Positions 1 to 48,320 of a DNA stretch of 50,198 nucleotides are shown piece after piece. Where the stretch lies: positions 1-50,198 of IMG/VR virus record IMGVR_UViG_3300042386_000133; one strand, 5' to 3'. Position numbers and translations under genes: made by a program. Origin of the DNA: a virus. A model generated the notes under the pieces. The model was not told the DNA's origin. It did not search any database and was given only the letters and a program-made list of their open reading frames with translations. How positions within the stretch are numbered: the stretch's first letter is position 1; each line of letters opens with the position of its first letter.

Positions 1-261
1 TATGATCAGAAGAAGGATAAGCCACGTATGCGCTTGATGAATGAAGTTATGCGCACAGCACAGATGTATTTGGATCTCGAAGAAGTAATTGGTTGTCGAG
101 ACGTTCAGATCCATCTGGACATCAACCCTGACGAGAAGCATGGTTCTTCATGCGTAATCTCAGAGGCAGTTGGCTATATTAAGGGATTTTGTAACGTAGT
201 ACCTTTCGTAAAGCCCAACGCTTTCGCCGCCAGTATAGCAGCCGATCGTTTATTGGCGTAA
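1..261 (+). CDS. RNase H-like DUF458/YkuK-type protein (3' part)
   Basis: The frame is open from the first base of the window, so this is the C-terminal part of a longer gene; the ATG at 28 is internal. The residues HLDINPDEKHGSS followed by a Gly-rich turn and a KPNAFAASIAADR ending resemble the C-terminal half of YkuK/DUF458 proteins, a predicted RNase H-fold family also found in T4-like phages. Catalytic activity is not shown. A tRNA gene follows after 9 bases. Family assignment is from motif memory only. Confidence 0.6.
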   Translation, partial: YDQKKDKPRMRLMNEVMRTAQMYLDLEEVIGCRDVQIHLDINPDEKHGSSCVISEAVGYIKGFCNVVPFVKPNAFAASIAADRLLA

Positions 262-270
262 ATTAAAAGA

Positions 271-346
271 GGGGGTAGAGCCAGCTGGGACGGCCATCTG
301 CTCATAACAGATTTATGACCAGGTTCGATTCCTGGTGCCCCTACCA
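271..346 (+). tRNA. tRNA-Met (CAT)
   Basis: Complete cloverleaf with 7 bp acceptor (G1-U72 pair), 3 bp D stem, anticodon stem ATCTG/CAGAT with loop CTCATAA, T arm CCAGG-TTCGATT-CCTGG and encoded CCA. It is the only tRNA on the plus strand. A lysidine-modified Ile decoder cannot be excluded because the anticodon is CAT. Confidence 0.9.
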
Positions 347-367
347 TTTATCATGAAAGGAAATTAC

Positions 368-796
368 GTGAATCGTTTGTTGTCTGTTGTTTTAATTTCA
401 ACGGCGTATGCTGTTACATGTACGCCTGTGCAGGCCAATTTTTTGGAGGATCTATTCCGGCCATTTTCTGCACAGCCTTCCCAGCATACCCATAACACTA
501 AGCATTCCAAGCATATAAATAATTATTCCACTGGTGGCGGACACAACGCCTCGTGGTATAACGACCGGAGCGGACGGACAGCATCCGGTATGCGTCACCA
601 TTATGGTGTTGCGCATAGAACCTTACCATTTGGAACAACGGTTTGTATCCACAACCCGTCAAATGGTAGGCAAGTAGAAGCCGTTGTAACCGATAGAGGG
701 CCATTCGTCAGAGGAAGAACAATTGACGTTAATCAAAACGTGGCTCGTGCTCTAGGTTTCTCAGGAACCGCACATTTAAATTACCATCCGTGTTAA
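368..796 (+). CDS. Exported RlpA-like double-psi beta-barrel protein
   Basis: The C-terminal half (from about residue 55) has ASWYNDRSGRTASG, a TLPFGT turn, TDRGPF and RTIDVNQNVAR, the signature of the RlpA double-psi beta-barrel, a domain of septal peptidoglycan-binding lytic transglycosylases and related endolysins. The N terminus is a signal-like hydrophobic stretch ending near VQA. I chose GTG at 368 because AAAGGA lies 6 bases upstream; an ATG at 353 has no ribosome site. It is next to another exported cell-wall-type protein, so a role in the envelope (lysis, or remodelling during infection) is likely. Whether the Asp needed for glycosidase activity is functional cannot be judged. Confidence 0.75.
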   Translation: MNRLLSVVLISTAYAVTCTPVQANFLEDLFRPFSAQPSQHTHNTKHSKHINNYSTGGGHNASWYNDRSGRTASGMRHHYGVAHRTLPFGTTVCIHNPSNGRQVEAVVTDRGPFVRGRTIDVNQNVARALGFSGTAHLNYHPC

Positions 797-15495: not shown

Positions 15496-15502
15496 ATTAA
15501 TC

Positions 15503-15922: not shown

Positions 15923-15923
15923 C

Positions 15924-16211: not shown

Positions 16212-16257
16212 TTCGATCTCCATAAAGGAGCGGACTAACCTTAGATCCGCACGAGTC

Positions 16258-16265: not shown

Positions 16266-16281
16266 GCGACCAACCTAATTC

Positions 16282-16356
16282 TGGCTGGAATGGCAGGATT
16301 CGAACCTGCGACCAAGTGATTAACAGTCACCTGCGCTACCGCTGCGCCACATTCCA
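16282..16356 (-). tRNA. tRNA-Asn (GTT)
   Basis: TGGAATG acceptor, anticodon loop CTGTTAA, T loop TTCGAAT, encoded CCA. Confidence 0.92.
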
Positions 16357-16533: not shown

Positions 16534-16535
16534 CG

Positions 16536-16543
16536 TATTTATA
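16536..16543 (-). promoter_or_regulatory. T4-type late promoter
   Basis: Exact TATAAATA, overlapping by one base the -10 box of an early promoter. It would transcribe tRNA-Asn and the exported protein genes. Confidence 0.6.
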
Positions 16544-16570
16544 TTCTACCCTAAACCTACCAAAAGTCAA
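16543..16570 (-). promoter_or_regulatory. Early sigma70-like promoter in tRNA cluster
   Basis: TTGACT, 16-base spacer, TAGAAT on the minus strand, in the gap between tRNA-Thr (AGT) and tRNA-Asn. Confidence 0.65.
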
Positions 16571-16578
16571 GTTATTTA

Positions 16579-16654
16579 TGGTGCTGTCGGAGAGAGTCGA
16601 ACTCCCGACCTGATGATTACTAATCAACTGCTCTACCAACTGAGCTACGACAGC
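16579..16654 (-). tRNA. tRNA-Thr (AGT)
   Basis: GCTGTCG acceptor, D stem GCTC/GAGC, anticodon loop TTAGTAA with a T-T mismatch in the stem, T loop TTCGACT, encoded CCA. A at position 34 is unusual for a bacterial Thr tRNA. Confidence 0.85.
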
Positions 16655-16660
16655 ATTAAA

Positions 16661-16734
16661 TGGTACTGGGACTAGGTATCGATCCTAGGCTCCGAGCTCC
16701 ACAAACTCGGGTGCTTCCATTACACTACCCCAGC
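16661..16734 (-). tRNA. tRNA-His (GTG)
   Basis: GCTGGGG acceptor pairing with TCCCAGT, anticodon loop TTGTGGA, encoded ACCA end. No G at -1 and A73, as in one alphaproteobacterial clade. Confidence 0.88.
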
Positions 16735-16737
16735 ATA

Positions 16738-16811
16738 TGGATCGGGGACCTGGACTCGAACCAAGAACGACGGAGCCAAAACCCGTAGTTTTACCATTAA
16801 ACTATCCCCGA
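16738..16811 (-). tRNA. tRNA-Gln (TTG)
   Basis: TCGGGGA/TCCCCGA acceptor, anticodon loop TTTTGGC, T loop TTCGAGT, encoded CCA. Confidence 0.9.
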
Positions 16812-16818
16812 ATAAATT

Positions 16819-16902
16819 TGGTGCCGAGAGTAGGGTTCGAACCTACCGTGCTATAAGCGTCTGATTTACAGTCAGGTGCCCGTCCACTCAGGCGTCCTCG
16901 GC
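16819..16902 (-). tRNA. tRNA-Tyr (GTA)
   Basis: GCCGAGG acceptor, anticodon loop CTGTAAA, long class II variable arm, T loop TTCGAAC, encoded CCA. Confidence 0.92.
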
Positions 16903-16907
16903 ATTAA

Positions 16908-16984
16908 TGGAGCTCCCGGAGAGATTTGAACTCCCAACCCTCGGTTCCGTAGACCGATGCTCTATCCTGTTGAGCTACAGAAGC
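16908..16984 (-). tRNA. tRNA-Arg (ACG)
   Basis: GCTTCTG acceptor, anticodon loop CTACGGA, T loop TTCAAAT, encoded CCA. A34 presumably becomes inosine by host TadA. Only Arg tRNA seen. Confidence 0.9.
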
Positions 16985-16988
16985 ATAT

Positions 16989-17065
16989 TGGTGCCCTTGG
17001 TCAGATTCGAACTGACACTTTGTTGATTTTGAGTCAACTGCCTCTGCCGATTGGGCTACAAGGGC
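16989..17065 (-). tRNA. tRNA-Leu (CAA) with short variable loop
   Basis: GCCCTTG acceptor, anticodon stem GTTGA/TCAAC with loop CTCAAAA, variable loop of only 5 bases, T loop TTCGAAT, encoded CCA. Leu tRNAs normally carry a long variable arm. Confidence 0.85.
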
Positions 17066-17071
17066 ATTATA

Positions 17072-17147
17072 TGGTGCTTCACCTTTGAATCAAACAAAGT
17101 CCTTCTGTTCTTCAGACAGACGTGCGGATCACCTACACCAGCGAAGC
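17072..17147 (-). tRNA. tRNA-Phe (GAA)
   Basis: GCTTCGC acceptor, anticodon loop CTGAAGA, T arm CTTTG-TTTGATT-CAAAG, encoded CCA. Confidence 0.9.
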
Positions 17148-17153
17148 ATTATA

Positions 17154-17249
17154 TGGTTGGTCAGGTAGGAGTTGCACCTACACGTCATCGTTTCAACTAG
17201 TATGCGACGACAGCTGTTACGCCACGGTTACTATTACGTCACTGACCAA
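17154..17249 (-). tRNA. Aberrant tRNA-like gene (96 nt)
   Basis: An 8 bp acceptor TTGGTCAG/CTGACCAA followed by CCA and a T arm GTAGG-TGCAACT-CCTAC are clear. Between them no standard cloverleaf forms: a 3 bp D-like stem ACG/CGT with a loop lacking GG, and a 7 bp hairpin GTCGTCG/CGATGAC with a 14-base loop. No convincing anticodon; an AAC triplet in a weak 6-base loop is one option. It occupies a normal slot in the tRNA array. Confidence 0.5.
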
Positions 17250-17252
17250 TAA

Positions 17253-17329
17253 TGGTGCCCCAGGAGAGATTCGAACTCCCAACCTTTGGTTCCTAAGACC
17301 AACGCCTCTGCCAATTGGGCTAATGGGGC
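17253..17329 (-). tRNA. tRNA-Leu (TAG) with short variable loop
   Basis: GCCCCAT acceptor, anticodon loop CTTAGGA, 5-base variable loop, T loop TTCGAAT, encoded CCA. Like the CAA tRNA it lacks the long arm expected for Leu. Confidence 0.85.
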
Positions 17330-17334
17330 ATAAA

Positions 17335-17410
17335 TGGTAGACGATGACAGGTTCGAACTGCCGACCTTCGCTGTGTAAAAGCGTTGCTCTCCCAACTGAG
17401 CTAATCGTCC
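17335..17410 (-). tRNA. tRNA-Val (TAC)
   Basis: GGACGAT acceptor, anticodon loop TTTACAC, T loop TTCGAAC, encoded CCA. Confidence 0.92.
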
Positions 17411-17414
17411 ATAA

Positions 17415-17493
17415 TGGTCGGGGTAGCAGGATTCGAACCTGCGACCTACTGGTTCCAAACCAGCCACGCTAACCAGACTGCGCTACACCCCGA
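17415..17493 (-). tRNA. tRNA-Pro (TGG)
   Basis: TCGGGGT acceptor, anticodon loop TTTGGAA, T loop TTCGAAT, encoded CCA. Confidence 0.92.
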
Positions 17494-17499
17494 ATATAT

Positions 17500-17575
17500 T
17501 GGATGCGAAGCGTTGGAATTGCACCAACTTCTACTGGTTTATGAGACCAGCGAGATACTATACCTCCCGCCCGCA
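17500..17575 (-). tRNA. tRNA-Met (CAT), atypical D and T loops
   Basis: Anticodon arm CTGGT-CTCATAA-ACCAG is perfect and CCA is encoded, but the D loop GTATAGTAT lacks GG, the T loop is TGCAATT, and the acceptor needs a bulge near its base. These features are shared with the aberrant gene at 17154. Confidence 0.75.
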
Positions 17576-17582
17576 AAACTCT

Positions 17583-17657
17583 TGGTGCTGATAGTTGGAA
17601 TCAAACCAACCTGAAACGCCTTATGAGAGCGCCTCGACATCTTGCCGACCTATCAGC
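17583..17657 (-). tRNA. tRNA-Met or tRNA-Ile2 (CAT)
   Basis: GCTGATA/TATCAGC acceptor, anticodon loop CTCATAA, T arm GTTGG-TTTGATT-CCAAC, encoded CCA. Third CAT tRNA of the window; one may be a lysidine-modified Ile tRNA or the initiator. Confidence 0.85.
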
Positions 17658-17661
17658 GAAA

Positions 17662-17739
17662 TGGCATGGGAGGTAGGATTTGAACCCACGATCATGGTTT
17701 TGGAGACCACTGCTTTAGACCAGACTAAGCTACACCCAT
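17662..17739 (-). tRNA. tRNA-Trp (CCA)
   Basis: ATGGGTG/CTCCCAT acceptor, anticodon loop CTCCAAA, T loop TTCAAAT, encoded CCA. Confidence 0.9.
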
Positions 17740-17741
17740 AT

Positions 17742-17825
17742 TGGCGGAGGATGAAGGAATCGAACCATCAACTTTTCAGTGGCGCTGTTTTCAAGACAGT
17801 GTGTCGCCCAGCGACGCCATCCTCC
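17742..17825 (-). tRNA. tRNA-Ser (TGA)
   Basis: GGAGGAT acceptor, anticodon loop CTTGAAA, class II variable arm, T loop TTCGATT, encoded CCA. Confidence 0.92.
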
Positions 17826-17830
17826 AATTT

Positions 17831-17906
17831 TGGTGGACCAGAGAAGAATCGAACTCCCGACCCTCTGAATGCAAATCAGATGCTCTCCCAACTGAGCTAC
17901 TGGCCC
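17831..17906 (-). tRNA. tRNA-Ala (TGC)
   Basis: GGGCCAG acceptor, anticodon loop TTTGCAT, T loop TTCGATT, encoded CCA. Confidence 0.92.
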
Positions 17907-17910
17907 AAAA

Positions 17911-18073
17911 TGATAATACGCCAACACACTAACATAATGATCGGAGTTTTACCGGAACCTGGATCCCATCGCTTACGCCAGTTTATTAACGTCCGACCCG
18001 TTCACCTTTGCTACTTTACAACACATTACTGTCCACGTTTCGAACCGCAGTCTAGTGTGTTGGCGTATTATCA
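17911..18073 (-). ncRNA. Structured RNA A in the tRNA cluster
   Basis: A 163-base segment closed by a perfect 21 bp stem (17911-17931 with 18053-18073). Inside, on the minus strand, a further helix GGTCGGA/TCCGATC and small hairpins such as CTGG...CCAG can form. It has no convincing open frame and no tRNA shape. It sits between tRNA-Ala and tRNA-Ser where another gene would be expected, so it is probably a processed stable RNA, comparable in place and size to the stable non-tRNA RNAs of T4. Homology to them is not claimed. Confidence 0.65.
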
Positions 18074-18128
18074 AGTATTCTATTTAGTAATATTACCATA
18101 ATTTAACGAACAATTCAACAACTTTTTT

Positions 18129-18219
18129 TGGCGGAGAGTGAGAGATTCGAACTCTCGGTAGACTTTCGCCCACGCTTCGTTAGCAGTGAAGTGCCTTAGA
18201 CCAACTCGGCCAACTCTCC
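18129..18219 (-). tRNA. tRNA-Ser (GCT)
   Basis: GGAGAGT acceptor, anticodon loop CTGCTAA, long variable arm, T loop TTCGAAT, encoded CCA. Confidence 0.92.
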
Positions 18220-18222
18220 AAT

Positions 18223-18315
18223 TGGTAGTCCCAGTAGGATTCGAACCTACACTACTCGGTAATCTGCCGATGCGACCTTATAAGGATCGTGTGCTAACCA
18301 TTACACTATGGGACC
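18223..18315 (-). tRNA. tRNA-Leu (TAA)
   Basis: GGTCCCA acceptor, anticodon stem CGATC/GGTCG with loop CTTATAA, long variable arm containing CGG/CCG, T loop TTCGAAT, encoded CCA. The only Leu tRNA here with a normal long arm. Confidence 0.9.
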
Positions 18316-18316
18316 A

Positions 18317-18478
18317 TTACTCTTCAATACATTTAAAAGCATTACGGATCTCTTTCTTGTGACGAATGTCTCGTTCCTTGTCAAGAAAGTTGAATGCTGT
18401 GCAACATCCACAACGTAGTCTTTTGGTCTTCTTACCTTTTAGGTTTGCCTGACCAACTCTATATGCTGGAGACTTCAT
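18317..18478 (-). CDS. Small Cys-containing basic protein (53 aa)
   Basis: ATG 18478 with AAGGAG 6-7 bases upstream; stop lies one base before tRNA-Leu (TAA). The middle has RLRCGCCTAFNFLDKERDIR and a further Cys near the end, a possible zinc knuckle. It fills the only long gap between tRNAs in this part of the array. No family recognised. Confidence 0.6.
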   Translation of the reverse strand: MKSPAYRVGQANLKGKKTKRLRCGCCTAFNFLDKERDIRHKKEIRNAFKCIEE

Positions 18479-18493
18479 TTGTTTCTCCTTGAA

Positions 18494-18569
18494 TGGCGAC
18501 CCTGATCGGTTTCGATCCGACTACCTCCAACGTGACAGGCTGGCGCTCTCCCGATTGAGCTACAGGGCC
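18494..18569 (-). tRNA. tRNA-Asp (GTC)
   Basis: GGCCCTG acceptor, anticodon loop CTGTCAC, T arm with ATCGAAA, encoded CCA. Confidence 0.9.
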
Positions 18570-18575
18570 AAAACT

Positions 18576-18651
18576 TGGAGGATCCTCAGGGACTCGAACC
18601 CTGAACCTTGAGATTAAAAGTCTCTTGCTCTACCTATTGAGCTAAGGATCC
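18576..18651 (-). tRNA. tRNA-Lys (TTT)
   Basis: GGATCCT acceptor, anticodon loop CTTTTAA, T loop TTCGAGT, encoded CCA. Confidence 0.92.
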
Positions 18652-18658
18652 ATTATAC

Positions 18659-18736
18659 TGGTAGGGCGGATGGGACTCGAACCCACATTGCACAGATTGA
18701 AAGTCTGTTTTCCTAGGCCAATTAGAAGACCGCCCC
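18659..18736 (-). tRNA. tRNA-Glu (TTC)
   Basis: GGGGCGG acceptor, anticodon loop CTTTCAA, T loop TTCGAGT, encoded CCA. Confidence 0.92.
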
Positions 18737-18751
18737 GTAACTTACACACTT

Positions 18752-18780
18752 AATATACCCTGAAAGAGTGACAAAGTCAA
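18752..18780 (-). promoter_or_regulatory. Early sigma70-like promoter for tRNAs
   Basis: TTGACT, 17-base spacer ending GGG, TATATT on the minus strand, placed between tRNA-Lys (CTT) and tRNA-Glu and pointing into the main tRNA array. Confidence 0.75.
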
Positions 18781-18792
18781 CCTCTTTCTGAA

Positions 18793-18868
18793 TGGTAGAC
18801 CGAGAGGGATTCGAACCCACGACAAAGGGATTAAGAGTCCCCTGCTCTACCAACTGAGCTATCGGTCC
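18793..18868 (-). tRNA. tRNA-Lys (CTT)
   Basis: GGACCGA acceptor, anticodon loop CTCTTAA, T loop TTCGAAT, encoded CCA. Confidence 0.92.
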
Positions 18869-18874
18869 ATAAAC

Positions 18875-18948
18875 TGGTGCTTCCTGATGGTATCGATCCA
18901 ACGTCTCTCGATTATCAGTCGAGTGCTCTACCTTTGAGCTAAGGAAGC
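18875..18948 (-). tRNA. tRNA-Ile (GAT)
   Basis: GCTTCCT acceptor, anticodon arm CTCGA-CTGATAA-TCGAG, T loop ATCGATA, encoded CCA. Confidence 0.9.
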
Positions 18949-19089
18949 ATAACACTTAGAAAGATACAGGTTTACTATATCTCGGACGGAGATGGTTGCA
19001 ACCAGAGCCCACGGATAAAGATACAAGGTTTGAGCATCAGTATTTACTGGCGCCTTGCTCGCACGAGCCTGTACCTATCTAAGTGTTAT
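18949..19089 (-). ncRNA. Structured RNA B in the tRNA cluster
   Basis: 141 bases closed by a 22-position stem (18949-18970 with 19068-19089) that on the minus strand has 20 Watson-Crick pairs, one G-U and one U-U. Enclosed are several small hairpins: GCTC-GTGC-GAGC, CAGT-AAAT-ACTG, GGTTGCAACC and ATCTC-CGTCC-GAGAT, giving a multibranched fold. It directly abuts tRNA-Ile and tRNA-Cys, so it is likely cut out of the same precursor. Same architecture as RNA A but little sequence similarity. Confidence 0.65.
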
Positions 19090-19168
19090 TGGAGGGAGTG
19101 ATGGGACTCGAACCCACATAAAAAGGTTTTGCAGACCTTGCCGTAACCAATTCCGGACACACACTCCC
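19090..19168 (-). tRNA. tRNA-Cys (GCA)
   Basis: GGGAGTG/CACTCCC acceptor, anticodon arm AAGGT-CTGCAAA-ACCTT, T loop TTCGAGT, encoded CCA. Confidence 0.92.
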
Positions 19169-25608: not shown

Positions 25609-25976
25609 TTCTTGTCCTTATAATGATCGGCGTACAACATCATTATAACGTAATGAAGGACTTTAAGCAAGTCATCTTTATTGCTGCCATGCTTTTTGCC
25701 ATAGCGCCAAAGATATTTGATAGCAGTGTTTCGGAAGGTAGGCATAGAATCACCAAGAGCAAGCCACACATCGAAACATTCTATATTCTCTTCTTCAGTC
25801 ATATAATGCTGCCCATATGTCTTATCTATATAGGCGTGGAAGTCACGAATGATTTCGTCTTCCTTATACTTGTATTTAGGCGGCCAAGTTGAAGCAGTTG
25901 CGCCAGAAATATCACCCGACGCAGAAAGCGGCTGACCATAATAGTCACCATTCTCAAATCTATATGTCTTAGTCAT
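25605..25976 (-). CDS. DUF3310-like protein
   Basis: 123 residues. The C-terminal half, IECFDVWLALGDSM then NTAIKYLWRYGKKHG and LLKVLHYVIMML, matches the DUF3310 helical domain often found fused to or near phage nucleotide kinases. It overlaps the P-loop kinase-like gene upstream by 4 bases, which supports a joint role in nucleotide metabolism. Confidence 0.7.
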   Translation of the reverse strand: MTKTYRFENGDYYGQPLSASGDISGATASTWPPKYKYKEDEIIRDFHAYIDKTYGQHYMTEEENIECFDVWLALGDSMPTFRNTAIKYLWRYGKKHGSNKDDLLKVLHYVIMMLYADHYKDKK

Positions 25977-26512
25977 TTCACCTCCGCAAAATTCACAATG
26001 TGTTCTAGAATAGCCTTTTGTTCTTCCTTGTTATTATTTTTCATTTTAACTGTATTAAACATAAGAGTCATGTTAGAAAGAATATTAGCAATCTTAGTTT
26101 CACGACCCTGCAACCAAGTTTCGTTCTGATTACTACCACGCTCTTTATAACGCTCTTGTCGTACAGCCTTATCAGTTTCTAGATAAACGATCTCAGTTTC
26201 ATAGTTCTCAACACAATGTTCAAGGAACGATGATGTGAAAAGACGGTCGCCCTCGAAAAGAACAACCGCATCTTTATCTAAACTTGCTAGAAATTTAATT
26301 GCTTCTGGCTGAACAGCCATTGACATACGGTCAGTGCCAGAAAAGGTTTCACCCTCTTCATACTTACCGAGAATATAAGCAAGACCTGCCTGATGATAGG
26401 GAACTAACTTTACTTGATCAAACTTGGGAATGAAACCATACTTATTGAGAATTTCTTTCATCAACGTAGACTTACCAGCACCTGGTTCGCCACCTATTGC
26501 AATCACACGCAT
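25973..26512 (-). CDS. P-loop kinase-like NTPase
   Basis: 179 residues: Walker A GGEPGAGKSTLMKE at the N terminus, then SGTDRMSMAVQPEA and VVLFEGDRLF. The layout is that of small nucleotide or base kinases. Phage families that phosphorylate 5-hydroxymethyluracil in DNA are P-loop kinases of this size, and the neighbours (TET/JBP-type oxygenase, transferase-like protein) fit that role; an ordinary nucleotide kinase remains possible. GGGAG precedes the ATG. Confidence 0.65.
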   Translation of the reverse strand: MRVIAIGGEPGAGKSTLMKEILNKYGFIPKFDQVKLVPYHQAGLAYILGKYEEGETFSGTDRMSMAVQPEAIKFLASLDKDAVVLFEGDRLFTSSFLEHCVENYETEIVYLETDKAVRQERYKERGSNQNETWLQGRETKIANILSNMTLMFNTVKMKNNNKEEQKAILEHIVNFAEVK

Positions 26513-26569: not shown

Positions 26570-27244
26570 ATGTATTATTTAGTATACCGTATTACGCACA
26601 AAAAGTCAAACCAATTTTATATTGGAAGGCATGTTACTGAAAACATAGAAGATGGATACCTGGGATCCGGATCAGCTGATATGCTGAAAGACAAGAAAAA
26701 TTTAATAAAAGAAATTCTGCAGATTTGCGAAACCCCTGAAACCATGTTGACAAAAGAAATAGAATATATTTCTGATAACATAAGCAATCCTTTATGTGTT
26801 AATATGATTATAGGAGATCCCTCTCACGGAGTAATTCAACATTCTCAAAAATCAAAAACAAAAATTTCAAAAGGAATGAAAGTATATAAAGAGAATAACC
26901 CAGACAAATTTTTAGAACATATGTCAAAGGCAGGAAAATCTTTAAAAGGGCATAAACAATCTGAAAAACACAAATTTGCTCTTTCATTAAAAAGAAAGGG
27001 AGTTCCTAAGTCAGAAGAGTTTAAAAATAAAGTTTCCAATAAATTAAAAGACGTTTCAAATCGTCCACGTGAATCATTGTGTAAGAAATGGAAAATTACC
27101 AATATCATTACAAAAGAAGTCTTCATAGTAGAAGATAGGGTAAAATTCTGCGAACAGAATAATGTATCTTACCCTTCCTTCAACGTAGGGACTAGAAATA
27201 ACAAAGTTTATAAGAAAATTTGGTTATGTGAAAAACTTCTCTAA
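26570..27244 (+). CDS. GIY-YIG homing endonuclease (Seg-like)
   Basis: 224 residues, the only rightward gene in this half. YLVYRITHKKSNQFYIGRH is the GIY-YIG core and DGYLGSG the following loop; the middle is Lys-rich with NUMOD-like repeats (KISKGMKVYKENNP, SEKHKFALSLKRKG), and the C terminus has an IENR-type helix-turn-helix (VEDRVKFCEQNNVSYPSF). AT-rich, with its own late promoter, as in T4 seg genes. Its end overlaps the opposing gene by 21 bases. Confidence 0.85.
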   Translation: MYYLVYRITHKKSNQFYIGRHVTENIEDGYLGSGSADMLKDKKNLIKEILQICETPETMLTKEIEYISDNISNPLCVNMIIGDPSHGVIQHSQKSKTKISKGMKVYKENNPDKFLEHMSKAGKSLKGHKQSEKHKFALSLKRKGVPKSEEFKNKVSNKLKDVSNRPRESLCKKWKITNIITKEVFIVEDRVKFCEQNNVSYPSFNVGTRNNKVYKKIWLCEKLL

Positions 27245-28204
27245 ACCAACTTCACAGTTTTCCCAAGGCAATAAGATTTCCCTTGTAGCAAGATATTGAG
27301 AGTTAGATTTATTTTCTTTTGTGAGTTGTAAATCGAGCAATCTTTTGTCTAGTGTTTCTATTCTTGCATCCCATAATGGTTGCCAATCAATTCCATTCCA
27401 ACCATCTTTTTCAACAGTTTCTATTTCTTCTCGCTGTCTAGCAATATAATAACCTAAGAATCTCGTATGATGATTTCTGAAAATTTTACGGTAGCTACAA
27501 AGACATGTTTCCATATCAAAGTAATCAGTGTCAGGAAATTCTCGTTGGACTTCTTCTAATATTTCTTTCGCAGAACCATCTAGATAATTTAGTTCTTTTG
27601 AAGATAGTTTTACGTCATACCATTCAGGTTTATCGACAGCCATACAAAGGCCATTACGATGAGAACGAGAACCAGAATAATCTTCTAGCATTAAACTTCC
27701 AGGTTCTATTGGAAGTCCGCAACACTGCTTTAATGTTTGTAGATAAAACCAAGTTGAATATCTACCAAATTTATGGAACTTAGTTTTGATTTCATTCCAA
27801 ACATTATTGAAGTTTTCGTCAGGGTGTTGATCGAGGAACGGACGAAATGCTTCTGTCTGAGAACGATCGCCAACCCAGTTCTTGTAAGATTCAAACTGTG
27901 CAGGTAGATGACCCTTATTCCATTTTGTATCGATTTGATAACGTAGTCTTTTATAATTAGTATTATTCCAATCTTTGAGACGATCTAAACCAACAAGTTC
28001 CATATCAGGAAACTCGTTCCAGATAACCCAAGTAGTTGGAAAATAATACGTTGTGCCGTAGATCCAAGCAATCCAAAGTTTTTGTTCTTTGTTATGCTCG
28101 AACCTACGGAACAAGTAATTGGTCATGAAGATAGCGGGGTCGCAATCCTTAATGGAAAGTGACCACCGATACCAGTTTATGAAGTCTTTTAATGTTTTTT
28201 CCAA
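27224..28204 (-). CDS. Amino acid:DNA transferase / thymine pyrophosphorylase-like protein
   Basis: 326 residues. N-terminal helical part FINWYRWSLS ... DPAIFMTNYLFRRFE, then FGRYSTWFYLQTLKQ, LEDYSGSRSHRNGLCMAV and a long C-terminal helical region. This order recalls the alpha-glutamyl/putrescinyl thymine pyrophosphorylase (amino acid:DNA transferase) families, which replace the pyrophosphate on modified thymine in phage DNA by an amine. The match is from memory of motifs, not an alignment. Its neighbours strongly favour a DNA modification role. Confidence 0.55.
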   Translation of the reverse strand: MEKTLKDFINWYRWSLSIKDCDPAIFMTNYLFRRFEHNKEQKLWIAWIYGTTYYFPTTWVIWNEFPDMELVGLDRLKDWNNTNYKRLRYQIDTKWNKGHLPAQFESYKNWVGDRSQTEAFRPFLDQHPDENFNNVWNEIKTKFHKFGRYSTWFYLQTLKQCCGLPIEPGSLMLEDYSGSRSHRNGLCMAVDKPEWYDVKLSSKELNYLDGSAKEILEEVQREFPDTDYFDMETCLCSYRKIFRNHHTRFLGYYIARQREEIETVEKDGWNGIDWQPLWDARIETLDKRLLDLQLTKENKSNSQYLATREILLPWENCEVGLEKFFT

Positions 28205-29667
28205 AAGTTTTTATACTCGTCCATAATCTTAGAACGAGCAGATTTTTGAATCCGCATACGCTCTGCATAACTAACATTAGCATCATCAAAGGTTTCACCA
28301 ATAACATCAAGAAGAATATCTTCTTGCATGGTTTCGCCCTTCAAATACTTATCGAAACAATATGCGATCCAACCACAATACATTTCTCTGTCTCGAATGT
28401 TTTTTGTAGTTTTTGTTGCCTCTTCTGAGATAATTCTTCTAGAGGTAACTTGCATATCTTTAATATGAGGATTAAATTTAAGAGTTGAACCCATAGAATC
28501 CGGAGTCTGTAATTCATCCATCATAATAAAAAGATTATTTAAAGAATCATCAAACCTCGGGCGAGTCCATGGTCTATAACCATTATTCGCATAGATTATA
28601 ATAGTATATATACCATCTTTTACTTTTTCTGATTTATTAACCATCATATATCGAACTAACATACCAATCAATGGAGCAGTTAGTTCTTTGCGAATATTTT
28701 GTTGGCCAATCATTCGTCCAAACTCTACCAATTCTGGCATGAAATAATCTAATACTTCAGCTGTTTTAGCAGCACGCTCTCCATCGCTTTTTACATTCTC
28801 GATAGAGATAGTTTCTGTTTCGTTTGCAGGAATATAACCATCTAGAACAGTAACTGCAATATCATAAACAGCTTCGCCCTTTTTCCACTTAACTGGTAAT
28901 TCAGCTTCATGATACCCAAACGCTCTCATATATCCGCTTAATTTTTCATTGAAAGTTTCTGCAGTTATATTAGAATCAATAGAGTGATAAATTTGTTCTG
29001 CTTCTTCTTCGTTTTCTACTTCAAAAAAAGTAACAAACCATTCGCTTGGAACTTGATATCCAGGAAAATGTAAATTATTTTTGAAAATATAAGAACGTGT
29101 ATTACCATCCAATCTTTCAATTTTACCATCTGGATATACAGCACAAGCCATAAGTCTATGTGTTTCTAAAAATTTAGTTCCGAGTGCACGTTTTGTTTTT
29201 TCCCAGCGTAATGTCTCATTTCGTTGACACCAAACAGGCTGAAAACTAAAAGCTATTTCGGAAGATAATATCATACTAGTAAGTTTACTGTTTGTATTTT
29301 TAAATCTTTCTTTAAGTTGTTTCCAAAGAGTTTTAATAGAAACATTATATTCTGTTTCTTCTCCAATAAGACTATCGATAATAGAATTATCATACCATTC
29401 TTTTAGAATTCTTTTACCTTCTTCTGTAAGAGTATTACCTTTTTCTAAGTTTTCTTGTTTCTCAATCCAAGAAAGATTTTCTGGGCGAGCTAAAACATCA
29501 GGTAAAATTTTATGTTTAAATCCAAAATCTATTGGAACAATATGATCTAATTGTGGTTGTTCTAAATGAGAAGGCGCTTTAAAACTTTTCTTAAAAAGAT
29601 CTGTAAGATATCTTACTTTTTCTTCATACTGTTTTTTATTCTTAAAACTAGTATTTGCATTTGTCAT
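28189..29667 (-). CDS. HNH-like plus ParB-like protein
   Basis: 492 residues from ATG 29667 (AAGGAG upstream). Residues about 35-85 (QLDHIVPIDFG ... NLSWIEKQENLEKGN) look like an HNH domain with its Asn and His; around residues 170-190 VYPDGKIERLDGNTRSYIF has the DGNxR motif of ParB/sulfiredoxin-fold proteins. ParB-like proteins recur in predicted DNA hypermodification operons. An early promoter (29748-29776) lies upstream. Overlaps the next gene by 16 bases. Confidence 0.6.
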   Translation of the reverse strand: MTNANTSFKNKKQYEEKVRYLTDLFKKSFKAPSHLEQPQLDHIVPIDFGFKHKILPDVLARPENLSWIEKQENLEKGNTLTEEGKRILKEWYDNSIIDSLIGEETEYNVSIKTLWKQLKERFKNTNSKLTSMILSSEIAFSFQPVWCQRNETLRWEKTKRALGTKFLETHRLMACAVYPDGKIERLDGNTRSYIFKNNLHFPGYQVPSEWFVTFFEVENEEEAEQIYHSIDSNITAETFNEKLSGYMRAFGYHEAELPVKWKKGEAVYDIAVTVLDGYIPANETETISIENVKSDGERAAKTAEVLDYFMPELVEFGRMIGQQNIRKELTAPLIGMLVRYMMVNKSEKVKDGIYTIIIYANNGYRPWTRPRFDDSLNNLFIMMDELQTPDSMGSTLKFNPHIKDMQVTSRRIISEEATKTTKNIRDREMYCGWIAYCFDKYLKGETMQEDILLDVIGETFDDANVSYAERMRIQKSARSKIMDEYKNFWKKH

Positions 29668-29747
29668 GTTCAATCTCCTTGTTTATGACATATAAAAACC
29701 ACAAATTTGCGTGTCTCCGAATGGGTCATCAAATTCATAGTTTCAAT

Positions 29748-29776
29748 ACTATACTATATTTCTTCAAAATTTTCAA
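29748..29776 (-). promoter_or_regulatory. Early sigma70-like promoter
   Basis: TTGAAA, 17-base spacer, TATAGT on the minus strand, at the end of the GNAT gene and ahead of the HNH/ParB-like gene. Confidence 0.6.
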
Positions 29777-30332
29777 GCCCTTTATATTCTTTAAAGAGTT
29801 CTACACAACCCCCTTTACCTTTAAATGTAGCAGCTTTGTAAATAACTGAATCAACAGAATAATCTATATCTTCATATCGGTGAGCGTTCAATTTAAACAT
29901 AGCTAATAAACAACCACTTTTCTGTTTACCAACAAATTGTATTCCAAGTTTTTTATAGAAGGGTATTGCTGGTATTTCAGAAGAAACTCTCATATAATCA
30001 GCGCCTTTTCTGAGATAAACATCTATCAAACTATACTGACATAATAATTTCGCGACACCTTTTTTACGATGTTTATGGAAAGTATGAAGCAATTGAAGGT
30101 TAGCCGTATAAGGTTTACGTTTCGAAATAGTTGTGAGAATGGCTCCGGCAAGGTCATCGCCTTCCCAGAGCCCAACAACTTCATCCCATTTGTCTAGCAT
30201 ATCACATTTAGCGACAAATGTTTTAGCAAAATTATCTTCTTTGTTTTTGGAAATAAATTTTACAAATTGTTCTTTCGAAACTGCATCAAACCTCGATGAA
30301 TTCTCTTGCCTTTTTTCCTCGCTCTTTTCCAT
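29754..30332 (-). CDS. GNAT acetyltransferase-like protein
   Basis: 192 residues from ATG 30332. QLLHTFHKHRKKGVAKLL is the acetyl-CoA binding loop region and YMRVSSEIPAIPFYKKLGIQFVG the C-terminal GNAT motif B with the FY-K-LGI signature. The acyl acceptor is unknown. Starts inside the amidoligase gene (46-base overlap), suggesting coupled expression. Confidence 0.7.
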   Translation of the reverse strand: MEKSEEKRQENSSRFDAVSKEQFVKFISKNKEDNFAKTFVAKCDMLDKWDEVVGLWEGDDLAGAILTTISKRKPYTANLQLLHTFHKHRKKGVAKLLCQYSLIDVYLRKGADYMRVSSEIPAIPFYKKLGIQFVGKQKSGCLLAMFKLNAHRYEDIDYSVDSVIYKAATFKGKGGCVELFKEYKGLENFEEI

Positions 30333-31158
30333 ACTTTGTTTTCTCCCACGAGGTATAAATTTCATGATCGTATTTTAATTCTGGAAATTTATAATCACCC
30401 TCTAATAAAATCTGTTGAACATCTGGACCATCATTAAGAGCAGCATCCATAAACTTTTCTACGAATTTAAATGAATCTTCAAGCTCTCTACGGTCAAGAG
30501 AATTACGAAAACATCTGAACTCAATAGTTCCTGTGTGTTTCATACAATACGTATTGATAGCGTAACGAAAAGGACGACCCATTGATTTACCGTCTTTACC
30601 AGCTGCATGTAATTTAATAAAGTGTTCAAAGTCGGTTGTAAGATTGATAATGTTAGCAGACATATAGTCAGGCATCAACCTACCACAATCCAGCTTCAAA
30701 TAACTCTTAGCTGTCTTTGTAGAAGACATATCCGGATGCAATCTAAACGCATGAACACGATCAACTACTACATGCTGATTGTCTCTGATGTAAGCAATCA
30801 AACGCTTTAGTGCATCAACATCTTCTTTTAGACCGGGAACAAATACGTGAATATGATTATGAGAAATACAATTGCTAGTAGGGTTGTTACCATTCGACCT
30901 ATAAAAATCAAGAATCTCAAAAATTCTATCAACTTGTTCCTTCCAAGTTTTTGTTGGTCTTACGTTAATCTCACCACCAAACGGCGGTTCAATACCAAGT
31001 GGATCACAAGCAATACCACGATAAGGAGGGTTTAAATTAACAACATCAGTTTCTGAAAACTCCCATTTACCTAAATGTTCTGGAAGCGGAAGGCGACGGT
31101 CCGCATCTCCCACTTCCATCTCAAACCCCCAAGTAAAACTCTTTGGGTCATATGTCAT
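30286..31158 (-). CDS. Amidoligase (COOH-NH2 ligase, glutamine synthetase fold)
   Basis: 290 residues. FTWGFEMEVGD, FGGEINVRPT, CISHNHIHVFVPG, INTYCMKHTGTIEFRCFRNS follow the Amidoligase_2 family, ATP-dependent enzymes joining a carboxyl to an amine. Such genes are known next to class-II glutamine amidotransferase and acetyltransferase genes, as here. It could build an amino-acid adduct on a metabolite or modified base; a cell-surface substrate is the alternative. ATG overlaps the next gene by 4 bases. Confidence 0.8.
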   Translation of the reverse strand: MTYDPKSFTWGFEMEVGDADRRLPLPEHLGKWEFSETDVVNLNPPYRGIACDPLGIEPPFGGEINVRPTKTWKEQVDRIFEILDFYRSNGNNPTSNCISHNHIHVFVPGLKEDVDALKRLIAYIRDNQHVVVDRVHAFRLHPDMSSTKTAKSYLKLDCGRLMPDYMSANIINLTTDFEHFIKLHAAGKDGKSMGRPFRYAINTYCMKHTGTIEFRCFRNSLDRRELEDSFKFVEKFMDAALNDGPDVQQILLEGDYKFPELKYDHEIYTSWEKTKYGKERGKKAREFIEV

Positions 31159-31838
31159 TGCAAATCCTCGATCGTTGGAAATTCATACTTATTATAGCTT
31201 ATTACTTTGAAATTTTCAACTATAAAAACTTCGAACATAGGAGCAGAAACTTGAAAACTCAACCCGCTTCTTTTTAGAATATCAGCAGTTGATGCAAAGA
31301 TAATACCGTTTGCAGCATAAGAATAATGCAATGGTCTAGCTTCGTTACGAAAGGCAGTAATTACTTTATCTTTATCAAGAGTACAAACTGACATACTGGA
31401 AGGATGAAACTTATGCAAAGGAACTTCGCCAGTTTCCAAACAGCGTAAAATTAATTCACTATCGTTCTTTGTAATAACATCGTAACCAAAAGTTCCTTTC
31501 CACTGTTCTGGATTCTCTTGAGAAATAACCCCATTGTGAACAATAGAAAGTTCTTCTGTTGCCATTGGCTGATTGTATGCAAGATCGCTAGTTGAGTATC
31601 GAACATGACCAATACAATAAAGATTGCCATCTTCGTTTACCCAACTAGAAATGTCTTGGCTGTTTATGAATGTGCAGGCATTGACAGGTTCTTTGATAGT
31701 ATGAACCTTGCCATTCTTAACATATGATACACCAGTGGCATGTTTACCACGAATCATTGATTCAACAAAAAGACGGCGAACAAGTTCGAATTCTTTTTCA
31801 CCGGGATTTTTGATAGCTATGCCTAATACTCCGCACAT
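31155..31838 (-). CDS. Class-II glutamine amidotransferase
   Basis: 227 residues beginning MCGVLGIAI, so the N-terminal Cys2 nucleophile is exposed after Met removal; GKHATGVSY, IGHVRYST and SIVHNGVISQ are the glutaminase substrate loops; TKNDSELILRCLE follows. Only the ammonia-producing domain is present, so the partner is probably the amidoligase encoded immediately downstream. Confidence 0.88.
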   Translation of the reverse strand: MCGVLGIAIKNPGEKEFELVRRLFVESMIRGKHATGVSYVKNGKVHTIKEPVNACTFINSQDISSWVNEDGNLYCIGHVRYSTSDLAYNQPMATEELSIVHNGVISQENPEQWKGTFGYDVITKNDSELILRCLETGEVPLHKFHPSSMSVCTLDKDKVITAFRNEARPLHYSYAANGIIFASTADILKRSGLSFQVSAPMFEVFIVENFKVISYNKYEFPTIEDLQ

Positions 31839-33256
31839 TAGAAAAATGCCTCTAGACTTGCTTCTTCTGCCTTACCATAAGGATCCTTCATTCCATGAGC
31901 ATGAAGATAATCATACCACTCTTTGCAAGGAATAACACCTGCGTGTTTTCCTTCTTTGATTGGTGTCCAATCATCCCACATTCCAGGAGATATACCGTTC
32001 CACAATGGTCGCTGGAAAGGATGATTTTTATTCATTCGGCGTTCTTCAACAAACTGTTTACGTAACGCTTCATACTCATATGACTTTAGCTCGAGCATCT
32101 TTTCACGGAAATAACAAACTACAGAAATACGCTCAGAAGTAGCGCTATCAGGATTGTTAAGAACAATAGGGGTATTTCCATGGATAACTTCATGGTTATT
32201 GACAAGCAAAAGGTCACCAGGACGCACATTAACAGCAACTCTATACTCCGGAAAAACAAGGTATCCTCCTGTATATTCTCCTGTGCCTAGCACCAGTAGA
32301 TTACTTAGGCCAGTGTCTAAGTCACCAGCGTCACGGTGACAAGCAGTGCGGAATGTCTTGTTTACTGTTATAGTAGTAAATACTGTTTCTGGAACAAGGA
32401 ATCTTGGATCCATTTTATCAGCGGCTGCTTTTTGATTGCCCCAACGCCATGGAAGTAATTCCTTAAACCCTTTATTCAAAGTTTGTAGGAATGGATATGC
32501 TAGTTTGAAAAGTTCTGGATGCTTTTCAGTGTATGACGTTGCACGGCCATAAGGGATGCGAGGGTAACGATCATACCAACCAGCAACACCTGAGAATACT
32601 GACTTTGCATAATTAGTAGTTGATGCCCACTTTTCGGCAACCATTGTTGCTTCTGCACGAACTTCCTCCGGTGGTTTATTACTAAGACCATCTACCCACT
32701 TATCAAACCAACCATGATATTCTGGGTACACCTTCATAACTTCAGAACGCAACCAAACAGTACCACGTGTTTCTTCAACGCCCTTTGGCCCGCCGTTCTT
32801 ATACTTCTCACGAATAGAAGCAACTGATACATCATTAAAAAGCGAAGCACCATCATCCATAAGAAAGTCAAGAATTTCCTGCTGATATGGAGTAACCCAA
32901 TCCCTACCACCACGACCTTCAGTCGCAAGCATATCGCCACGAGGTCCAGCAGCAAGTCCACGGTTCTGACTTTCTACCGCAGCTTCTCTCAAGCCACGAT
33001 ATGCCATATCCTGTTCTTCTTGACTGAAGTAATTTTTACGGAACTTGAATGCGATACGTAATTCGTCATTACCTTTGCCACAATCGTCACAATCTGACAT
33101 ACCGCACATAGCTTTGGTAGCAACATCGCAAAGCGGTGGCATATAACAATCAGTATCTTCTTCGATTAGAATATCGTAATTACTTTCGTCAACAAACTGC
33201 CCAAGCAAATGTTCGCAATCATGTTTAGTCTTAGCAACAATACGTCTAACCATCAT
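31838..33256 (-). CDS. TET/JBP-type 2-oxoglutarate dioxygenase
   Basis: 472 residues. The C-terminal domain has TACHRDAGD (Fe ligands His307 and Asp309), LVLGTGEYTGGYLVFPEY, NVRPGDLLLVNNHEVIHGN (His359) and SERISVVCYFRE (2-oxoglutarate Arg376), which matches the phage TET/JBP family that oxidises methyl groups of 5-methylcytosine or thymine in DNA. N-terminal 60 residues hold a Cys cluster (CGMSDCDDC) that may bind zinc or an Fe-S centre. Residues 100-270 are an unassigned helical region. ATG 33256 or 33253 overlaps the MazG-like gene. Confidence 0.8.
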   Translation of the reverse strand: MMVRRIVAKTKHDCEHLLGQFVDESNYDILIEEDTDCYMPPLCDVATKAMCGMSDCDDCGKGNDELRIAFKFRKNYFSQEEQDMAYRGLREAAVESQNRGLAAGPRGDMLATEGRGGRDWVTPYQQEILDFLMDDGASLFNDVSVASIREKYKNGGPKGVEETRGTVWLRSEVMKVYPEYHGWFDKWVDGLSNKPPEEVRAEATMVAEKWASTTNYAKSVFSGVAGWYDRYPRIPYGRATSYTEKHPELFKLAYPFLQTLNKGFKELLPWRWGNQKAAADKMDPRFLVPETVFTTITVNKTFRTACHRDAGDLDTGLSNLLVLGTGEYTGGYLVFPEYRVAVNVRPGDLLLVNNHEVIHGNTPIVLNNPDSATSERISVVCYFREKMLELKSYEYEALRKQFVEERRMNKNHPFQRPLWNGISPGMWDDWTPIKEGKHAGVIPCKEWYDYLHAHGMKDPYGKAEEASLEAFF

Positions 33257-45903: not shown

Positions 45904-47709
45904 CTATTGTTGTGCTTGCGGTGCACCACCCGCTCTGACTTGAGATACCAAATCTGGATTTTTAGCGAGCACTTGAACCGCTGCTTTATACTTGGCTTCA
46001 TCTGCCATAGTTCTATTAGCCTTTGGTGTCTTTTTCATTTGATCGACAATAATCTGAGCGTTATGAACTTGTTGCATTTTTTGAGCTAGTTCTGGATCTT
46101 GACCTTGCGATCCTTCAACTCCAGGTTGTAATTGCTGATCTTGCATTTGTTGATTCATCATATCCTGCTGTTGGAGCATCTGCTCGTTCTGCAGAACCAT
46201 AGGATTGACCCATCTATATTCGCCCTTCTCAGCAAGATTATTTTCGTTAGAAATTGCCTTATCATTTTTATCAATATCATCGTCTGATTGAAGAAGAACG
46301 TTTTTACGAACCCATTCATGTGAATAATATTTACCAATCATATCCTGAATATTTCTTGCTTGGTTAATACGACCTTCAAGAATTTCAGCATCTTTGAGTT
46401 CAGTGAAGTAGTTATCCTTAGCAAAGTCAAAACGAATGTCATCGACAATAGCATTCCAGTCTTCAAGAGTTGTTACACCCTTTAAGAGTAGCTGTTTCTT
46501 TAACATCTCTAGGAATAGGTTTGAGAATCTTCCTCTCAAACGAATACAGAAACGATTAAACTTTAATTCGTCTCTTGTAATTTCTGTTGCTCTACCAACT
46601 GAGAACAGAGCATCTGAATTAAGTCTTGACACCGGAACATTAAGCGCCTGTAAAAACTTCTTTTGGAAGTATAGGACGTCGTCCATTTGTCCCAGTGTCT
46701 GGCCACCTGGTAGGGTAGTAACCTCCGTACCTCTACCACCTTCACGGCGTGGTAGCCAATAGTCTTCAAGCATCGTCATGAACTTACGATCGTCACGAAT
46801 GTCGCCAGTCTGTGCGTCGTAAATCAAACGGTTCTTATGCTTAACCATAATGTCACGAACATACTGCTCTGCCTTCATCTTAGGAAGATTACCAACGTCA
46901 ATATACCAAATACGACGTTCTGGTGCACGAGCAAGACGATAGATAACTAGAGCGTCTTCCAATGTTCTTAACTGATTAAGTGGCTTGATTGCTTTATGTA
47001 GATATGAGAGAACCATTGTTCCCTGATTGTCAGTAAGACCTGACACAATATGTAAAACTGAATCCTTAGCAATCTTTAGTCCTGTAGTAGATGGACCGAC
47101 TGCTTTATTTCCGAAGTTGAAACCTTTGTCATTGAAAATGAAATATTCATTTACTGTTTTGGTAACAACTGCATCGCCTGGATTATTGGCTTGAATTTTT
47201 TTCTTTTGAACCTCACGGACTTTACGAATCTTACGTGGGTCAACGTAACGTATTTCTTTGATACCTGCTTTTGGGTCGTTATCATCAATGATAACATGAT
47301 AATACAAACGACCGTCAATATACCAACGACGGTAAATTTCATAAGCGTATTTGTTAAACCCTAAAAGGTTCAAACAATGTTGGAACTCATCACGAATAAT
47401 CTTTTTGATATTTTCATTGACTTTTAGCTGTTCAAGATTAATCTGAACAATATGTTCCTCATCAATTGAAATTGATTCATTAACGATTTCATCAACAGCA
47501 GCATCGCATTCTGGCTGTAATGACATCTCACGGTATTTTGTAACTAGCTCTGCTTCAGAACGTACTGTACCATCAAGATCAACATAGGTGCCAAAAGCAC
47601 CACCTGCTGATACGACTACTGCACCGTCATCCGAGTCCTTTGGGGGAGCGAAAGACGGTAGCTCTGGTTCTGGTATCTTTTTTCTAAATTCGAAACCGAA
47701 TAAATCCAT
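45904..47709 (-). CDS. 20: Portal protein gp20
   Basis: 601 residues: FAPPKDSDDGAVVVSAGG, EIVNESISIDEE (EIVNEAI in T4), KEIRYVDPRKIRKVREV, RLARAPERRIWYIDVGNLPK and DVLYFQKKFLQALNVPVSRL are the gp20 core. C-terminal 100 residues are Gln/Met-rich. Forms the dodecameric DNA-entry vertex. ATG overlaps the stop of the homing endonuclease gene. Confidence 0.96.
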   Translation of the reverse strand: MDLFGFEFRKKIPEPELPSFAPPKDSDDGAVVVSAGGAFGTYVDLDGTVRSEAELVTKYREMSLQPECDAAVDEIVNESISIDEEHIVQINLEQLKVNENIKKIIRDEFQHCLNLLGFNKYAYEIYRRWYIDGRLYYHVIIDDNDPKAGIKEIRYVDPRKIRKVREVQKKKIQANNPGDAVVTKTVNEYFIFNDKGFNFGNKAVGPSTTGLKIAKDSVLHIVSGLTDNQGTMVLSYLHKAIKPLNQLRTLEDALVIYRLARAPERRIWYIDVGNLPKMKAEQYVRDIMVKHKNRLIYDAQTGDIRDDRKFMTMLEDYWLPRREGGRGTEVTTLPGGQTLGQMDDVLYFQKKFLQALNVPVSRLNSDALFSVGRATEITRDELKFNRFCIRLRGRFSNLFLEMLKKQLLLKGVTTLEDWNAIVDDIRFDFAKDNYFTELKDAEILEGRINQARNIQDMIGKYYSHEWVRKNVLLQSDDDIDKNDKAISNENNLAEKGEYRWVNPMVLQNEQMLQQQDMMNQQMQDQQLQPGVEGSQGQDPELAQKMQQVHNAQIIVDQMKKTPKANRTMADEAKYKAAVQVLAKNPDLVSQVRAGGAPQAQQ

Positions 47710-48320
47710 TATTTATGTCTCCCTTTCACCCAACCTTCTGGAACTTCATTAGGATTAAAAGCTCTGTTTATTAGACCATTATTATAAACGTTTTTACCAT
47801 ACATATTATTCAATTCGCCTTTTTGTGAAACTTTTTTAATTTCAGACATTTTCTTTTTAACGTCTTCCCTCAAAGCTGGATTTGGATTTTTGTAACCACT
47901 TTCGAATAATTTTTTACGAGCGATTTTCATATTCAATTTATGTTGTTCTGATTTTGGACCACGTAATTTTTGTTTTGTTTTTTCAGAACGTTTTTTTCCA
48001 ATATGAGTTAAAGTGCCTTTTAGTGCACATTCTGAATCGATTGATATGTTATCGGTTTTATTAATCCATTTATCATTTTTCACAACTTTCATTTTCTTTA
48101 AAACTTTTTCTTCCCAAAGACGAGCTTTATTTTCATCTCCAAAAGTTTTTCTTATTTGAATGATATCCGGATCGCCGTATAGATCAGCGAAAGTTTTTAC
48201 ATGTTTTGAAGAAGTAAAATATGTGACCCATAAATCTTCTGGACGACAGTTCTTACTAAATCGAACTCCGTAATAAAATTTATTAAATTTACTCCAGCCG
48301 ATAAGATAGGTATATGCCAT
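47709..48320 (-). CDS. GIY-YIG-type homing endonuclease
   Basis: 203 residues. YTYLIGWSKFNKFYYGVRFS is a GIY-YIG-like core, followed by a Lys-rich middle with NUMOD3-like repeats (KKRSEKTKQKLRGPKSEQHK) and a C-terminal NNGLINRAF element. AT-rich insertion between genes 19 and 20, linked by TAATG to gene 20 and GGAGA to its own start. Typical free-standing phage homing nuclease. Confidence 0.8.
   Translation of the reverse strand: MAYTYLIGWSKFNKFYYGVRFSKNCRPEDLWVTYFTSSKHVKTFADLYGDPDIIQIRKTFGDENKARLWEEKVLKKMKVVKNDKWINKTDNISIDSECALKGTLTHIGKKRSEKTKQKLRGPKSEQHKLNMKIARKKLFESGYKNPNPALREDVKKKMSEIKKVSQKGELNNMYGKNVYNNGLINRAFNPNEVPEGWVKGRHK

Follow-up and report, generated by a model that had tools for sequence, protein, structure and literature searches.

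A phage TET/JBP-type dioxygenase with an optional four-cysteine loop and a conserved insert in its N-terminal half

The window, which is the whole stretch of 50,198 nucleotides of viral DNA analysed here, encodes a phage TET protein of a known kind, distinguished by a conserved insert and by a Cys4 loop that is optional and clearly delimited. The N-terminal half of this protein is composed of the TET core together with two insertions, at residues 39-62 and 111-205. The preferred reading, to which a probability of roughly 0.78 is given, is that of a single TET-type dioxygenase of a T4-like phage, bearing the optional Cys4 loop and the helical insert, which would hydroxylate a 5-methylpyrimidine and whose neighbours would enlarge the modification. 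The fold, the active-site residues, the all-or-none behaviour of the cysteine loop and the recurrence of the neighbours come out of the computation; the metal and its identity, the part played by the insert, the substrate, the sequence of steps and the protection of the DNA are inferred. A false lead, that of a 270-residue specificity module, is removed, and the question is narrowed to two clearly bounded insertions.

The gene and its genomic setting

The coordinates 31838-33256 of the original prediction are exact, and the gene call places the gene on the minus strand as an open reading frame of 472 amino acids, stop codon included; the plus strand across the same interval is crowded with stop codons.

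31838..33256, minus strand: gene for a TET/JBP-type Fe(II)/2-oxoglutarate dioxygenase, assigned from the open reading frame, the PF12851 and phrog_24024 matches and the TET-fold model

The surrounding genes are of T4 type and include SbcC- and SbcD-like nuclease subunits, a clamp loader, a sliding clamp, a late sigma factor, a portal protein and a major head protein. The minus strand also carries 24 tRNA genes packed into 15146-19166, with 25 across the whole window. Genes resembling homing endonucleases (phrog_314) are found at 26570-27244 on the plus strand and at 47709-48320 on the minus strand, the former situated between the transferase and kinase genes described below and on the opposite strand to them.

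Family assignment and the extent of the TET core

The Pfam Tet_JBP family (PF12851) matches residues 239-385 with 86.8 bits, the cut-off being 34.9 (E 1.3e-24), beginning at profile position 19 of 164, and a phage family of 433 positions, phrog_24024, matches residues 2-429. The NCBIfam search gave no match for the window protein. Among PDB sequences, the best hit of a single-sequence search was NgTET1 at E 0.057, and a profile search reached TET2 at E 0.004 with no stretch significant by itself. Public records label homologues of this protein as an "SNF2 DNA repair protein" (L001:7001-8347, L003:7001-8329 and L004:3729-5165). An SNF2 helicase identity was considered and rejected, as the window protein has no SNF2 or helicase match in Pfam at E up to 1, and the label looks like a propagated misannotation.

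Relatives were collected in three scans of viral contigs, which yielded 468, 523 and 578 and from each of which the 80 best were taken. Together with six phage records, these gave 244 protein entries (some contigs occurring twice), of which 186 are distinct. Two partial sequences (L048 and L067) and one of fewer than 280 residues (L082) were left out before filtering to less than 85% identity, which retained 95 rows including the window protein: 57 long forms of 425-472 residues and 38 short forms of 288-332 residues. The three iron-binding residues H307, D309 and H359 and the 2-oxoglutarate residue R376 are each present in 95 of 95 rows, as are K74 and R99 of the N-terminal segments. In the alignment, the long form is divided as follows.

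33143..33256, minus strand: residues 1-38, first N-terminal segment of the TET core (3-38 filled in 97-100% of short relatives; pLDDT 91-98)
33071..33142, minus strand: residues 39-62, Cys4 loop, C43-x7-C51-x4-C56-x2-C59, a presumed metal site, probably for zinc (absent altogether from all 38 short relatives)
32927..33070, minus strand: residues 63-110, second N-terminal segment of the core (K74 and R99 invariant; filled in 82-100% of short relatives; pLDDT 90-98 in blocks 61-110)
32642..32926, minus strand: residues 111-205, helical insert of the long forms (R118, W120, R164, W168, F184 and W187 near-invariant)
32042..32641, minus strand: residues 206-405, jelly-roll core, holding the active-site residues and the Pfam match
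31841..32041, minus strand: residues 406-472, C-terminal tail of the long forms (445-472 aligned in none of 38 short forms, 406-429 in part)

The short forms fill residues 3-38, 63-110 and 206-405 to a mean of 99.5%, 99% and 97%, respectively; the corresponding means are 0% for residues 39-62, 22% for 111-205 and 14% for 406-472. Because these minimal enzymes keep the N-terminal segments, the segments are part of the core and not an extension of it. Within the tail, residues 430-444 (31925-31969, minus strand) form an in-frame insertion of 15 residues that is seen only in the near-identical contigs L007, L008 and L082 (3 of 244 entries), and the ten-residue block 431-440, which covers it, has a pLDDT of 56.

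Predicted structure

An AlphaFold2 model was built from 87 sequences, these being the window protein and 86 of 88 references (L097 and L147, near contig starts, were left out). The model has a pLDDT of 90.9 and a pTM of 0.88, with no segment below 50; the two ten-residue blocks that contain the cysteines stand at 85 and 76. For fold comparison, the 1000 best Foldseek chains were re-aligned with VIA, and the VIA values are given throughout, several of the Foldseek rmsd values being large. Structures of TET2, NgTET1, CMD1 and CcTet fill the top 16 rows (Z 17.8-20.6), followed by ALKBH3 at Z 13.4, and all 16 alignments begin at model residue 1. The TET2 structure 9hxv aligns over 258 residues of model positions 1..401 (Z 20.6, rmsd 3.3), NgTET1 (4lt5) over 230 of 265 residues (Z 18.8, rmsd 3.9), CMD1 (7cy8) over 295 (Z 18.5, rmsd 4.0) and CcTet (7vpn) over 221 (Z 17.8, rmsd 3.1). 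As residues 206-401 can hold only 196 of the 258 positions aligned to TET2, at least 62 must fall within residues 1-205. In a library of viral structures, the best match is an entry of 442 residues that is 45% identical.

These results redraw the boundaries that had been proposed from the sequence. The TET/JBP core is not confined to about residues 285-390: the Pfam match starts at 239, the short relatives align over 3-38, 63-110 and 206-405, and the fold match runs from residue 1. Likewise, the first 270 residues are not an unassigned accessory half, given that both the short-relative alignment and the fold match place residues 3-38, 63-110 and 206-285 in the TET core. An independent DNA-binding N-terminal domain was rejected on the same alignment, the AlphaFold2 model and the TET fold match from residue 1. 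The outcome that had been set against the original prediction, a single oxygenase domain whose N terminus is disordered, is found in its first part, as the model is one domain, and not in its second, as the N terminus is ordered.

The cysteine loop

C43, C51, C56 and C59, and the peptide quoted with them, are present in the translation. Their clustering alone is weak evidence, since four cysteines within 17 residues are reproduced in 281 of 20,000 shuffles of the window protein. As judged from the aligned sequences, the strong evidence is their conservation, in which all four come and go together. Among the 57 long rows, the loop holds four cysteines in 25, a single one in two (L057 and L201) and none in 30; two or three are never seen. 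When all distinct long sequences are considered, of which 108 of 112 could be parsed by the loop pattern, four cysteines are found in 52, five in one, one in four and none in 51. The loops with four cysteines are 23-26 residues long and the other long-form loops 1-20, and the middle spacing varies from x3 to x5 across the 25 four-cysteine loops. With the loop columns excluded from tree building, the four-cysteine state changes at least 11 times, nine of these changes being forced by starred branches (the mean for shuffled states is about 19), with gain and loss of the loop indistinguishable. The loop is acidic, with a median charge of -3.

This pattern suggests that the loop is an optional Cys4 metal staple, probably for zinc. 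The four ligands appear and vanish as a set, and they do so in the N-terminal part that is zinc-stabilised in human TET2, which argues for a metal site; the four cysteines of residues 39-62 would hold a single structural metal ion, zinc being the likeliest, and so staple the N-terminal part. The metal centre of the original prediction is accordingly retained as an inference from the all-or-none pattern among the long rows. A search of Pfam found no zinc-finger family in the window protein at E 1, a search that a loop of 24 residues could escape. PMC11040006 describes two zinc ions that stabilise the helical bundle of TET2, CcTet and NgTet1 needing neither, and this independence is a precedent for zinc stapling being optional. 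As the loop is often missing or lost, its function would be modest or replaceable. Natural relatives without the loop, such as L054, which is 80% identical to the window protein, make the loop deletable along natural lines.

A link between the loop and the type of gene downstream was also considered. Where a long-form locus extends 4 kb or more downstream, an amino acid:DNA transferase (ADDT) gene lies beside 7 of 12 four-cysteine forms and 14 of 22 others, and a TAGT gene without ADDT beside 2 of 12 and 4 of 22, respectively (tblastn, E 1e-3). This threshold is looser than the family search, such that L054 counts as ADDT-positive and its record G006 is without a PF18724 match. Both loop states are thus found beside both ADDT and TAGT genes and the link was rejected. 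That the loop is unrelated to the downstream chemistry speaks against its taking part in selecting the target.

The helical insert

R118, W120, R164, W168, F184 and W187 are each conserved in all 57 long rows or in all but one. The span 106-210, which in the short forms is a linker of 10-33 residues whose letters the aligner placed mostly at 158-179, measures 90-120 residues in the long forms. Both this span (median charge -4, range -8 to 2) and the protein as a whole (-11 in the window protein, median -12 in the 57 long rows) are acidic. Other TETs hold DNA in a positively charged cleft, according to PMC7854593. When residues 104-214 were folded alone, the pLDDT was 72, and the isolated insert had no Foldseek match to solved structures at E up to 0.001, the best VIA value being Z 2.0 for a TetR chain. 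Poor folding in isolation and the want of a convincing structural match make the insert seem dependent on the core; the lack of a match for the isolated insert does not prove a new fold.

The Trp-rich region that had been noted at residues 160-280 is real in number, holding 7 of the 12 Trp (post-hoc binomial P 0.016), but it is not one unit, as W210, W227, W270 and W272 belong to the core and only W168, W183 and W187 to the insert. With its invariant Arg and Trp, the 111-205 insert is the best remaining candidate for touching duplex DNA or a partner, which it could do while packed against the core. PMC11040006 reports that a non-conserved loop of CcTet supplies Trp204 and Arg205 for DNA binding.

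Alternative explanations

In the original prediction, the N-terminal half was an accessory module that could recognise DNA sequence or bind a metal centre and would thereby determine target specificity. Four clustered and co-varying cysteines would suit such a module, as would the near-invariant Arg and Trp of the long-form insert. However, the N-terminal segments are kept in minimal relatives of 300 residues and lie inside the TET fold match, the four-cysteine loop is absent from 32 of the 57 long rows, is acidic and is unlinked to the type of neighbouring gene, and the insert, itself acidic, shows no convincing DNA-binding fold match when taken alone. This explanation is improbable, and the idea that the cysteine cluster sets specificity is not supported.

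Other readings concern the loop itself. The cysteines might hold an iron-sulphur cofactor, or supply the Fe(II) centre with a redox or iron-delivery site, in place of structural zinc; four cysteines are compatible with this and the variable middle spacing (x3 to x5) speaks in its favour, but the absence of the loop from many close relatives, and of any Fe-S model among the Pfam and NCBIfam matches (which so short a loop could escape), leaves it unlikely. Alternatively, the loop could be disulfide-bonded or functionally neutral, retained by shared ancestry only. Neutral decay should leave some loops with two or three cysteines, and these states are absent from both the 57 long rows and the 108 parsed distinct long sequences; moreover, disulfides are unlikely in cytoplasmic phage enzymes. 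The repeated changes of loop state on the tree, at least 11, and the single cysteine left in the shortened or decayed loops of L057 and L201 count in favour of this reading, which nevertheless has little chance of being the better account.

Neighbouring modification genes

The TET gene is followed on its own strand by a cluster of putative modification genes. The locus counts below were obtained with tblastn (E 1e-4), cover 56 loci of long forms and 38 of short forms, and are uncorrected for contig ends.

31155..31838, minus strand: class II glutamine amidotransferase, likely a tailoring step (PF13522, E 3.3e-11; 26 of 56 long and 11 of 38 short)
30286..31158, minus strand: amidoligase-like protein, a weak assignment (PF12224 at E 0.038, below cut-off; phrog_2443 at E 0.0034; 15 of 56 long and 3 of 38 short)
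29754..30365, minus strand: GNAT acetyltransferase (PF13673, E 8.2e-08; 10 of 56 long and 3 of 38 short)
28189-29673, minus strand: protein of 494 residues in the modification cluster, weakly like phrog_2615 and phrog_5104 (tblastn found it in none of 94 non-redundant relatives' loci, and only in near-copies)
27224..28204, minus strand: amino acid:DNA transferase, ADDT (PF18724, E 5.7e-25; 27 of 56 long and 16 of 38 short)
25973..26512, minus strand: P-loop nucleotide kinase 3, a candidate hydroxymethyl-base kinase (PF18751, E 2e-15; 26 of 56 long and 20 of 38 short)

The kinase, ADDT and amidotransferase neighbours indicate DNA hypermodification. The enzyme would hydroxylate a pyrimidine of phage DNA at its 5-methyl group, after which the kinase, the ADDT and the amidotransferase or amidoligase would build a larger modification that may shield the phage DNA from host nucleases. 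The order of hydroxylation, phosphorylation and amino acid transfer is modelled on phage thymidine hypermodification, from which it would carry over. A different phage route, that of a Nat Commun 2025 paper on carboxymethylcytosine, employs an amide ligase of asparagine-synthetase type.

Among 23 larger records that carry the TET gene, namely those of L001-L006 and of 17 further loci, PF18724 and PF18751 are each matched in 11 and shared by 10. The TAGT glycosyltransferase (PF20691) is matched in six of the 23, five of them over the cut-off. In 14 control genomes, PF20691 was matched once over cut-off, PF18751 once below cut-off and PF18724 not at all. Two types of neighbourhood emerge: 10 of the 23 records pair the kinase with ADDT and 5 carry TAGT above its cut-off. 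The two types overlap in Cr30 only, and weakly, by family search, and in L069 and Cr30 by tblastn.

As short-form loci hold the same genes without the insertions, neither insertion is needed for the kinase and ADDT pathway. A hand-over role for the insert was likewise dropped, the kinase and transferase genes being present in short-form loci without it.

The choice of base

A C5-cytosine methylase (PF00145) was matched neither in the window record, a 50-kb fragment of a phage genome, nor in any of 49 relatives' records (0 of 23 and 0 of 26), many of which are incomplete and six of the 23 titled as complete genomes; the same search matched 10 of 14 control genomes. Since no C5-methylase was found and thymine needs none, thymine is a live option as the substrate. 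The lack of a methylase match in these records leaves the source of any other 5-methyl substrate unexplained. Thymidylate synthase (PF00303), matched among 21 records in that of Cr30 alone, is uninformative on the substrate.

The active site speaks differently. Position 312 holds Asp in 93 of 95 rows, Asn in one and Ser in one, and in the sequence alignment D312 falls at the place of Asp234 of NgTET1, within the HxDxxD motif. Asp234 contacts N4 of 5mC in NgTET1, as described in PMC7854593, and the alignment of D312 with it would favour methylcytosine as the substrate.

A fuller scenario, rather doubtful as a whole, would have these phage TETs act as thymine hydroxylases that make 5-hydroxymethyluracil in DNA, which the kinase and ADDT would then convert to an amino-acid-bearing base; the long-form insert would position duplex DNA, and the Cys4 loop would be a zinc staple gained or lost many times. 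A large phage family, from aquatic and other environmental contigs, is flagged by the combination of TET, kinase and ADDT with no detected C5-methylase, and these phages make the choice between thymine and methylcytosine as a phage TET substrate directly testable.

Comparison with known systems

Phage TET/JBP dioxygenases have reportedly been treated by Burke et al. in 2021. The members of this group (PF12851, phrog_24024) share with the window protein the oxygenase motif, the phage setting and the neighbouring modification genes. Unlike them, the long form described here adds the cysteine loop, the 111-205 insert and the C-terminal tail, and its neighbours are in many cases a kinase and ADDT in place of TAGT, with no C5-methylase in the 49 relatives' records. 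In PMC12730594, phage C5-cytosine hypermodification is described as a combination of methylase, TET and glycosyltransferases.

Homologues from Stenotrophomonas phage DLP_6, Caulobacter phage Cr30 and phage C48C1 are 45-49% identical over 97-99% of the length and carry either the "SNF2 DNA repair protein" or a hypothetical annotation. The cysteine loop is present in the Cr30 homologue and absent from those of DLP_6 and C48C1. A digest with 18 enzymes is described in the DLP6 paper.

The catalytic domain of human TET2 is the best structural match (Z 20.6) at 16-18% identity. The cysteine-rich part of TET2 wraps the jelly roll and is stabilised by zinc, as set out in PMC4224472 and PMC11040006. 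This region of TET2 is large and holds three zinc ions, whereas the window protein has one small Cys4 loop, and the two are likened by region and not residue by residue. NgTET1 of Naegleria shares the HxDxxD motif in a chain about 200 residues shorter than the window protein and, according to PMC11040006, has no need of zinc in this part.
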